From positions 930,001 to 994,000 of the forward strand of contig NZ_AKGD01000001.1 of assembly GCF_000271305.1 (NCBI RefSeq): a stretch of 64,000 nt of DNA. The letters run 5' to 3'. Below the pieces are notes generated by a model. It had not been told where the DNA came from. It made no database searches and worked only from the letters and a program-made list of their open reading frames with translations. A program made the translations under genes and the position numbers. Source of the DNA: Hydrocarboniphaga effusa AP103. GTDB lineage: Bacteria > Pseudomonadota > Gammaproteobacteria > Nevskiales > Nevskiaceae. This document shows, in pieces, positions 5,293 through 7,164 of the stretch (its first letter is position 1; the number at the start of each line of letters is the position of its first letter).

Positions 5293-7164
5293 ATGTCGAC
5301 TCCCATCGCCATTATCGGCCTGTCCTGCCTGTTCCCGGGAGCGCCGAATCTCGAGCGCTTCTGGCGCAACATCGTCGAGGGCGTCGATGCGATCGGCGAG
5401 GTTCCGGCTGGCCGTTGGGACCCGAGCTTCTACGATCCGGAGTCGAGCGCGCTCGATCGCTTCTATTGCAAGCGCGGCGGCTTCGTCGACGAGCATGCGA
5501 GCTTCGATCCGCTGCCGTTCGGCGTGATGCCGAAGGCGGCCGAAGCGATCGAACCCGATCAGCTGCTGACGCTCAAACTCGGTTACGAGGTGCTGCGCGA
5601 CGCTGGCTACGAAGGCAGGCCGTTCGCACGCGAGCGCACCGGCGTGATCATCGCGCGCGGCAATTACGTGACCGCGGGCGGCCTGCGTTTGCAGCAGCAT
5701 GTGCGCGTGCTGCCGCAGGTGCTGCAATCGCTGACCGACCTGTTTCCGGATCTGCCCGAATCGACGCTCGCCATCGTGCGTGAGCGCCTGCAACAGCAGC
5801 TCAGCTATTACGGGCCCGATGTCATTTCGGGCGCGATTCCGAACTTCGTCGCCTCGCGCCTCGCCAATCGTCTCGATCTGCGCGGCCCGGCTTATACGGT
5901 CGATGCGGCCTGCGCGAGTGCGCTGCTCGCCATCGAACAGGCCTGCGCTTCGCTCGCTCGCCGCGAGACCGATGCGATGCTCGTCGGCGGCGTGCACCTG
6001 TCGCACGACCTCACGTTCTGGGCCACGTTCTGCCAGCTCGGAGCGCTGTCTCGCACCGGTACGATTCGCCCGCTGTCGCAGGACGCGGACGGCATTCTGA
6101 TCGGCGAAGGCATCGGCCTCGCCATGCTCAAGCGCCTGGATGACGCGATCGCCGACGGTGATCGCATCTATGCGGTCATCGAAGGCAGCGGCTCGTCGAG
6201 CGACGGGCGCAGCAGCAGCCTCGTTGCGCCCTCGGCGACCGGCCAGCTGCTCGCGCTCGAAAAAGCCTGGGGACAGGCCGGCATTTCGCGCGAGGACATC
6301 GGCCTGGTCGAGGCGCACGGCACCGGCACCACGGCCGGCGACGTCACCGAACTCGAAACGCTGGCCCGCTTCTTCGGCGGTCCGCGCGAGCACGGCACGA
6401 CGCCCGTCATCGGCTCGGTCAAATCGATGATCGGCCACGCGATGCCGGCTTCGGGCATGGCGAGCCTGATCAAGACCGCGCTGTCGATCTATCACGGCGT
6501 GCTGCCGCCGACGCTGCATTGCGAAGAGCCGCACGAGAAACTCGCGCAGACGCGCTTTCGCGTGATCGGCAGCTCCGAGCCCTGGAACCAGGCGCGTGAA
6601 CAGCGCGTCGCGGCCGTCAATGCGTTCGGTTTCGGCGGCATCAATGGCCATCTGGTCTTGCGCGGACGGCCCGCTCTTGAATCCCCTCTCCCACTCGTGG
6701 GAGAGGGTGGTCCGAAGGACCGGGAGAGGGACTGGTCGGAAAGGGAGCGCGCTTTACAGGCGGGGGGGTATAGCTCAGCTGGGAGAGCGCTTGCATGGCA
6801 TGCAAGAGGTCATCGGTTCGATCCCGTTTACCTCCACCACCCCCGCTACGCGGGGACTCTCTCCCGCAAGCGGGAGAGAGGAAAGGCAGGTCAACGCCTC
6901 AGAGTTGCCGCATGTGCTGCTGCTGTCCGCGCCGACACCGCAAGACCTGCTCGCGCGCCTCGAACGCGGCGAGCACGACATCACGCCGCGCGCCGATGTC
7001 TGCCGGCTTGCGATCGTCGAGCCCGACGATCGCAAGCTCGCAACCGCGCGCAAGGCCATCGCCTCGGGCAAGCCCTGGAACGGTCGCCAGCAAATCTGGT
7101 TCTCGCCGCGTGGCCTGCTCACTGCGGGCGGCAAGCTCGCTTTCGTGTTCCCCGGCGTCGATAG
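5293..7164 (+). CDS. Ketosynthase protein, upstream half of a split KS-AT-DH-PPTase gene
   Basis: A beta-ketoacyl synthase domain runs from the start (GLSCLFPGAP) to GFGGINGHLVL at about residue 457. Cys207 (DAACASA), His342 (EAHGTGT) and His382 (MIGHAM) form a complete condensing triad, so the KS itself looks active. Real homology stops near base 6672. The last ~165 codons are an artefact of reading through a tRNA-bearing insertion and then out of frame into the AT gene. In the neighbouring synthase the KS is followed by a linker and an AT, and here the AT resumes in frame +2 just past the insertion. This is therefore best read as one KS-AT-DH-PPTase gene interrupted in its KS-AT linker. Whether the two halves act as separate subunits or the gene is dead cannot be told from sequence. 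Confidence 0.85.
   Translation: MSTPIAIIGLSCLFPGAPNLERFWRNIVEGVDAIGEVPAGRWDPSFYDPESSALDRFYCKRGGFVDEHASFDPLPFGVMPKAAEAIEPDQLLTLKLGYEVLRDAGYEGRPFARERTGVIIARGNYVTAGGLRLQQHVRVLPQVLQSLTDLFPDLPESTLAIVRERLQQQLSYYGPDVISGAIPNFVASRLANRLDLRGPAYTVDAACASALLAIEQACASLARRETDAMLVGGVHLSHDLTFWATFCQLGALSRTGTIRPLSQDADGILIGEGIGLAMLKRLDDAIADGDRIYAVIEGSGSSSDGRSSSLVAPSATGQLLALEKAWGQAGISREDIGLVEAHGTGTTAGDVTELETLARFFGGPREHGTTPVIGSVKSMIGHAMPASGMASLIKTALSIYHGVLPPTLHCEEPHEKLAQTRFRVIGSSEPWNQAREQRVAAVNAFGFGGINGHLVLRGRPALESPLPLVGEGGPKDRERDWSERERALQAGGYSSAGRALAWHARGHRFDPVYLHHPRYAGTLSRKRERGKAGQRLRVAACAAAVRADTARPARAPRTRRARHHAARRCLPACDRRARRSQARNRAQGHRLGQALERSPANLVLAAWPAHCGRQARFRVPRRR
6684..6707. repeat. REP-like palindrome, left
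   Basis: CCCTCTCCCAC pairs perfectly with GTGGGAGAGGG (11 bp) around a 2-base TC loop. It is the left bracket of the tRNA insertion and matches the right bracket at 6857-6880 in core sequence and geometry. Confidence 0.9.
6709..6721. repeat. Small hairpin GGTCC-GAA-GGACC
   Basis: A perfect 5-bp stem with a GAA loop immediately follows the left REP-like palindrome and is probably part of the same repeat unit. It is followed by GGGAGAGGGA, a further copy of the half-repeat. Confidence 0.75.
6764..6839 (+). tRNA. tRNA-Ala(GGC)
   Basis: A full 76-nt cloverleaf ends in encoded CCA. The acceptor GGGGGTA pairs with TACCTCC and keeps the G3:U70 wobble pair that is the alanine identity element. The D-arm is GCTC/GAGC. 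The anticodon stem CTTGC/GCAAG closes loop ATGGCAT, with anticodon GGC at 6797-6799. The T-loop is TTCGATC. The T-stem ATCGG/CCGTT has a U50-U64 mismatch where the E. coli tRNA-Ala(GGC) has G-C, so the copy may be slightly decayed. It lies in the same orientation as the PKS operon, inside the KS-AT linker, with no clear promoter of its own. Its excision by RNase P and 3' processing would cut the operon mRNA (inference). Confidence 0.95.
6841..6855. repeat. Hairpin abutting the tRNA 3' end
   Basis: CCCCGC pairs with GCGGGG around a TAC loop, starting 1 base after CCA. There is no T-tract, so it is not a convincing intrinsic terminator. It may protect or delimit the tRNA precursor or belong to the REP-like unit. 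Confidence 0.75.
6857..6880. repeat. REP-like palindrome, right
   Basis: CTCTCTCCCGC pairs perfectly with GCGGGAGAGAG (11 bp) around AA. It is the counterpart of 6684-6707. The purine-rich 3' flank (AGAGGAAAGG) could by chance offer a ribosome binding site for the AT-DH-PPTase half downstream. Confidence 0.9.

Follow-up and report, generated by a model that had tools for sequence, protein, structure and literature searches.

A bare, apparently Burkholderiales-like tRNA-Ala(GGC) within a REPIN interrupts a polyketide synthase gene in a bacterial genome assembly, most likely through an in-silico or assembly event

Results

A polyketide synthase gene is interrupted in its KS-AT linker

The window (the whole stretch of 64,000 nt that we analysed) corresponds to C1:930001-994000 of a 5.19-Mb genome assembled in four contigs, and begins with two polyketide synthase (PKS) genes (Table 1). 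The first of these, the neighbouring synthase, has a continuous KS-AT linker. In the second, homology to KS extends as far as GHLVLRGRP and that to AT restarts at about NASELPHVLLLS in a different frame, so that the split in the linker described in the original prediction was confirmed, together with the intact linker next door. The interrupted ORF at the KS part is 625 aa, and its frame continues out of register to a stop at 7164 (ORF 5293-7164). The frame of the AT-DH-phosphopantetheinyl transferase (PPTase) part is shifted by one relative to that of the KS part, and its only early in-frame starts after the insert are TTG 6905 and GTG 6914.

Table 1. Features at the interrupted locus (positions in the window)
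Feature	Position	Strand	Evidence
Neighbouring synthase, KS-AT-ACP-ACP-KR	10..5286	+	Open frame; Pfam domains
KS part of the interrupted PKS gene	5293..6672	+	Pfam ketoacyl-synt, E 2.8e-64; continuous orthologues 75-77% identical
REP1 half of the REPIN	6683..6731	+	98% to the genome-wide REP1 consensus
REPIN spacer, left part, to consensus position ~80	6732..6763	+	Alignment to the REPIN consensus
Foreign tRNA-Ala(GGC) with CCA	6764..6839	+	ARAGORN; Rfam; donor comparison; native copy
REP2 half of the REPIN, restarting at consensus position ~91	6840..6886	+	
AT-DH-PPTase part of the interrupted PKS gene	6899..9874	+	Pfam Acyl_transf_1, PS-DH, ACPS

A search of related genomes for an unbroken KS-AT gene, which had been suggested as a check, revealed a single frame of 1470-2592 aa across the same linker in nine relatives (~75-77% identical); in the eight of them that were aligned over the local frame, the linkers are short and continuous. 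The AT-DH-PPTase part is 61-65% identical to the same continuous orthologues as the KS part. Removal of exactly the 76-nt tRNA and joining of its flanks, performed as a check in script only, gave 1,502 codons with 0 stops, indicating that it is the tRNA, and not the REPIN, that breaks the PKS frame. The REPIN remnants are compatible with an open PKS gene. Pending junctions confirmed by reads, the KS part and the AT-DH-PPTase part are best regarded as a single gene that is interrupted in this assembly.

The tRNA was detected by both ARAGORN and Rfam (59.7 bits against a cut-off of 29, E 2e-10), which established that it is a complete tRNA-Ala(GGC). It lies in the sense orientation, with cloverleaf, GGC anticodon, G3:U70 pair and CCA all intact. 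All 76 of its 76 positions are identical to a tRNA of genome G288, which belongs to the same class but to a distant family. The flanks of that tRNA are unrelated to those of the window copy, and sequence comparison places the source of the insert apparently in the Burkholderiales. The idea that it might be the only tRNA-Ala(GGC) of the genome did not hold, since the host's own copy was found at C3:655530-655605, with unrelated flanks and identity to the window copy at 69/76 positions. ARAGORN made a second tRNA-Ala(GGC) call in the window, at 53851-53937, with the anticodon at position 29 and without support from Rfam; this call is probably false.

The tRNA is enclosed by a two-REP palindromic element in the KS-AT linker (6683-6886). 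The two matching hairpins with an 11-bp stem and a 2-nt loop that had been predicted are exact (6684-6707 and 6857-6880), and they are the halves of a single REPIN-like doublet composed of REP1, a spacer and REP2; further hairpins lie in the REP1 half (6709-6721) and in the REP2 half (6840-6855). REPINs are doublets of REP sequences that form hairpins (PMC3116915), and the element seen here resembles them in having two REPs in inverted order, a length of ~130-137 nt with a usual spacer of only 33-36 bp, and many dispersed copies (~45 loci in the genome, mostly in gaps between genes). It differs from them in that no RAYT-type transposase was found, a search of the whole genome for Y1_Tnp/RAYT (PF01797) giving no match, and in that a foreign tRNA is present between the halves of some copies, or next to them. 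These observations support the tRNA as an intruder in a REP-type element, and the segment at 6764-6839 is a bare tRNA-Ala(GGC) from another group of bacteria, apparently the Burkholderiales, placed within a REPIN of a PKS gene. In Pseudomonas putida, ISPpu9 is an insertion sequence found inserted in REP sequences (PMC8450116), so that there too REP sequences serve as landing sites for other DNA. In contrast to ISPpu9, the insert here is a bare tRNA with no transposase, and its position in the repeat is variable.

The genome carries a set of extra tRNAs

The assembly contains 66 tRNA genes, compared to ~44 in typical members of the family (best 69 candidates per genome scored). Four of the 66 stem from a duplication in C1 at an offset of 203,532 bp, and 17 are second, divergent copies of an anticodon. 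Fifteen of these 17 extra tRNAs match tRNAs of apparently Burkholderiales families at 99-100% identity along their length, and comprise Ala, Asp, Gln, Gly, His, Leu(CAA), Leu(CAG), Leu(GAG), Lys(CTT), Phe, Pro(CGG), Pro(GGG), Ser(CGA), Thr(TGT) and Tyr; for the other two, Arg(CCT) and Val(CAC), no donor was resolved. The donor order is named on account of Thr(TGT), whose 73 nt matched 37 records exactly, nearly all of them from Oxalobacteraceae such as Herbaspirillum and Collimonas. The foreign set contains almost no repeats and many minor isoacceptors.

A Ser(CGA) gene at C2:577826, also on the plus strand, does not differ from those found in other genera within the host's own family; it sits in the same kind of repeat as the extras and its flanks are unlike those of the family copies. 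It is likely to be an 18th foreign tRNA, and was entered as native in all statistics. Apart from Ser(CGA), none of the extras that were queried had a match of at least 97% among 84 other genomes of the order (five candidates per genome scored), and a family-wide pattern search for a tRNA 3' end followed by a REP gave true cases in this genome only. No source for the foreign set was found in phage and plasmid collections, where plasmid matches of the window tRNA were mostly at 94.7%.

We considered whether an excess of tRNAs in a congeneric genome (G001) was a related case, and rejected it. There, 37 divergent tRNAs for nearly all amino acids are closely packed on one contig (C38; L155:2784-6945), in an array that is phage- or island-like. 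Like the extras, these tRNAs come from outside the core genome, but they form a single tight array and are at most 85% identical to the extras, which are single, scattered and match chromosomal tRNAs of Burkholderiales. New bacterial tRNA genes have also been described to arise by large tandem duplication (PMC7661048). There too a bacterium gains tRNA genes, but the duplicate stems from the genome itself and brings its flanks along, whereas the extras here are foreign and bare.

The inserts end at the boundaries of the mature tRNA

We compared 13 of the inserts with their donors in detail. In 13/13, the shared sequence extended from nucleotide 1 of the tRNA to the CCA or to 1-3 nt short of it, and identity outside the mature tRNA was at chance level, indicating that no donor flank was present. 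The Asp and Tyr copies lack CA, and the whole CCA is absent from the Thr, Leu(CAA) and Ser copies, although the donors compared encode it (37/37 for Thr); the Val copy is also without CCA. The foreign tRNA-His lacks the G-1 that is present in three donor genes compared. With the exception of these CCA losses and the His G-1, the inserts therefore have the mature RNA ends without donor flank that retro-insertion would be expected to produce. Retrocopies derived from tRNAs, and SINEs, are known in eukaryotes. The inserts share with them direct repeats in two cases and a mature 3' end in most, but differ from SINEs in being bacterial, of foreign source and from a different tRNA each time, with repeats at only 2/17 and a uniform strand in the FASTA file.

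A REP or a second palindromic repeat was present within 100 bp of 14/17 foreign tRNAs, compared to 1/45 of the other tRNAs (p 3e-10). The insertion points fall at positions ~18, 24, 80, 82, 94 and beyond on the REPIN consensus, and 4-52 nt of the repeat have been lost at several sites. Exact direct repeats abut the tRNA on both sides in the Lys (37-38 bp) and Gly (45 bp) inserts; such repeats were seen for these 2/17 and for no other tRNA of the genome, and those of the remaining inserts are absent or imperfect. The Asp insert joins fragments of two different genes, and the Tyr insert touches the end of an IS21 element. No other RNA families were found at ~30 REP sites, and the inserts are thus specific for tRNA. 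The second family of long palindromic repeats (CTTACTTTCTTTGCTCCTGCAAAGAAAGTAAGC...) also hosts extra tRNAs, on C2 at 567, 621 and 578 kb.

The foreign tRNAs share the plus strand of the sequence file

Each of the 17 foreign tRNAs is on the plus strand (17+/0-) over four contigs, while the other tRNAs are distributed 28+/21-. This bias, which was noticed post hoc, has a two-sided p of 1.5e-5 against a 1:1 expectation and a Fisher p of 6e-4 against the other tRNAs. The orientation of a contig is arbitrary, and which strand is written as plus in a FASTA file is a matter of human convention. Retro-insertion should be independent of the FASTA strand, and the observed distribution is not; placement tied to a file convention, as would be left by assembly or in-silico insertion, is what was found.

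A replication bias was considered as the cause of this pattern. GC skew was too weak to serve as a map of the replichores, but the polarity of KOPS (GGGNAGGG) could be used, and is minus on C1 from 0.5 to 1.7 Mb and on C4, and plus on C2, C3 and the end of C1. At least four foreign tRNAs are opposed to KOPS and ~10 are aligned with it, although all are on the plus strand of their contig. We rejected replication as an explanation, since KOPS polarity flips between contigs. We know of no biological process that senses the strand of a file.

Discussion

Of the claims made in the original prediction for the tRNA insert, the intruder and the unbroken gene in relatives were upheld, and mobilisation by REP, gene fission and an origin from the host's own or only tRNA-Ala(GGC) were not. 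An assembly artefact, which that prediction had itself named as an outcome that would count against it, is now the leading explanation, because placement on the plus strand is uniform and that strand is a convention of the file. We consider it reasonably probable, and the most likely of the readings, that the foreign tRNAs are of in-silico or assembly origin. Pieces would have been joined during production of the sequence, when gap closing or polishing at repeats drew in foreign sequence; alternatively, the tRNAs may have been inserted deliberately in silico, and not in a cell. The real genome would then most likely contain a single unbroken PKS gene, its KS-AT linker holding no more than an in-frame REPIN, and the tRNA at 6764-6839 would have no function.

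Several features argue for an artefact. The sites (REPINs, the second palindromic repeat, IS21 ends and a junction of gene fragments) tend to be typical points at which contigs break, and the repeat sequence lost or exactly duplicated in their flanks resembles what unmerged contig ends would leave. Placement of one copy of each tRNA fits better with a non-repeated set rich in minor isoacceptors than with draws from the tRNA pool of a cell. Oddities of the assembly count in the same direction. Its contamination is 8.28%, and in C1 several tRNAs and PKS hits at ~30-180 kb recur at 234-384 kb, at an offset of exactly 203,532 bp and with identical flanks, which is either a large tandem duplication or a duplication in assembly. 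Neither tRNA-Ala(TGC) nor tRNA-Ile(GAT) is among the 66 tRNAs, and the rRNA operons are therefore probably missing from the assembly.

Other observations weigh against an artefact. To our knowledge, no assembler or polisher inserts complete foreign tRNAs. Six copies fall short of the CCA by 1-3 nt, which is untidy for a step driven by a database, and these trimmed 3' ends, like the two exact direct repeats, look natural. In addition, ~25 intact REPINs were assembled without trouble, and no runs of N were seen in the stretches sampled, so that a gap at each site would be an assumption. Two further ideas were rejected. Treating the insert as a shared block of the assembly graph accounts for its mature ends, yet neither the trimming of CCA ends nor the sense and plus orientation would follow from it. 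A duplication of 251 bp beside the Pro(GGG) insert was considered as a read length; its exact part is ~247 bp by eye, and it was given zero weight.

The alternative that survives best is natural capture, in which co-occurring Burkholderiales would have supplied tRNAs, mature or nearly so, or else single-stranded DNA in the shape of a tRNA, that entered the cell and served as filler during break repair at palindromic repeats. One such insertion would have fallen by chance in the REPIN of the KS-AT linker and split the PKS gene. We regard this as possible but doubtful, and the corresponding claim, that palindromic repeats trap bare foreign tRNAs at 17-18 sites in one genome, is equally tentative. 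The bare boundaries in the 13 inserts compared, the repeats of 37 and 45 bp and the losses at other sites, and the proximity of 14/17 inserts to palindromic repeats are all in keeping with it. Uptake of foreign tRNA fragments by bacteria has a precedent in Escherichia coli, which is able to import such fragments from other bacteria (PMC10455298). Capture by way of RNA would require a reverse transcriptase, and the DNA route would require only uptake of tRNA-gene DNA trimmed to the cloverleaf. The genome encodes Ku and two reverse transcriptases, one of a group II intron and one of the UG5 type, that might have taken part in such capture. Ku also occurs in relatives with normal numbers of tRNAs (for example G002 and G008). 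The gene of the UG5-nitrilase-type reverse transcriptase (C1:2222775-2228089) adjoins the IS21 element and the foreign tRNA-Tyr.

Natural capture is difficult to reconcile with other properties of the set. Placement of 17/17 inserts on the plus strand of the FASTA file cannot be read in biological terms, the G-1 missing from tRNA-His is expected in a mature tRNA-His, and the minor isoacceptors and near absence of repeats are unlike capture of RNA weighted by abundance. A search of the literature for insertion of tRNAs in REPs, foreign tRNA at breaks, and gap-filling artefacts involving tRNAs gave no description of any of these.

Transposition by REP/RAYT, by which a tRNA gene would have been captured and moved into the PKS gene, was first suggested by a search of the genome itself with the segment containing the tRNA and REPs, and would account for a tRNA lying between the two halves of a REPIN. 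We consider it very improbable. The genome has no Y1_Tnp, each insert is a different tRNA, no REP travelled along in the donors, and the insertion points are scattered anywhere over the REPIN, with losses or duplications. The proposal that REP palindromes mobilised the tRNA was accordingly abandoned.

An equally remote reading is that the tRNA is a processing signal that separates the KS and AT-DH-PPTase messages or proteins. Its sense orientation and intact cloverleaf, anticodon, G3:U70 pair and CCA mean that RNase P/Z or E could cut it if it were transcribed. However, nine relatives keep one gene, the AT part has TTG and GTG as its sole early starts, and the same kind of insert at 16 unrelated sites gives no sign of selection for fission. 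As 17 different tRNAs sit at unrelated sites, mostly in intergenic repeats, the PKS gene is one hit among many, and the suggestion that the tRNA acts as a device for gene fission or mRNA processing was not borne out. An old and ordinary arrangement, in which two separate genes flank a tRNA gene that belongs to the host, could draw on how common REP elements are between genes, but is already refuted by the continuous orthologues, by the native tRNA-Ala(GGC) elsewhere (differing at 7/76 positions), by the foreign identity of the insert and by the single frame of the flanks when joined without it.

If the inserts are an artefact, ~18 tRNA genes of a public genome are false and its PKS gene is wrongly split, errors by which studies of tRNA repertoires and gene clusters would be misled, and the plus-strand test offers a simple screen for such cases. 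If they are real, single tRNAs of other species would have been taken up into a bacterial genome at palindromic repeats, a route of gene transfer that is not described in the papers searched and would be categorically new. Single tRNAs would then pass horizontally between bacteria while breaks at REPINs are repaired, possibly by a step from RNA to genome, which would suggest that bacteria can write the RNA or the folded DNA of their neighbours into the chromosome.

Three further tRNA loci of this genome are unusual. At C1:67908-68132, a gene for tRNA-Gln(TTG) is followed by partial copies, in tandem, of the 3' two thirds of the gene itself. A tRNA-like gene of 99 nt at C4:216831-216929 was called with an anticodon of four bases (atag). 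Finally, a group II intron with a reverse transcriptase/maturase splits a tRNA-Gly(CCC) in its anticodon stem (C2:65650-69100, minus strand). Within the intron, immediately upstream of the reverse transcriptase gene, is another tRNA-Gly(CCC), which is complete; this intron may carry its own replacement for the tRNA gene that it interrupts.
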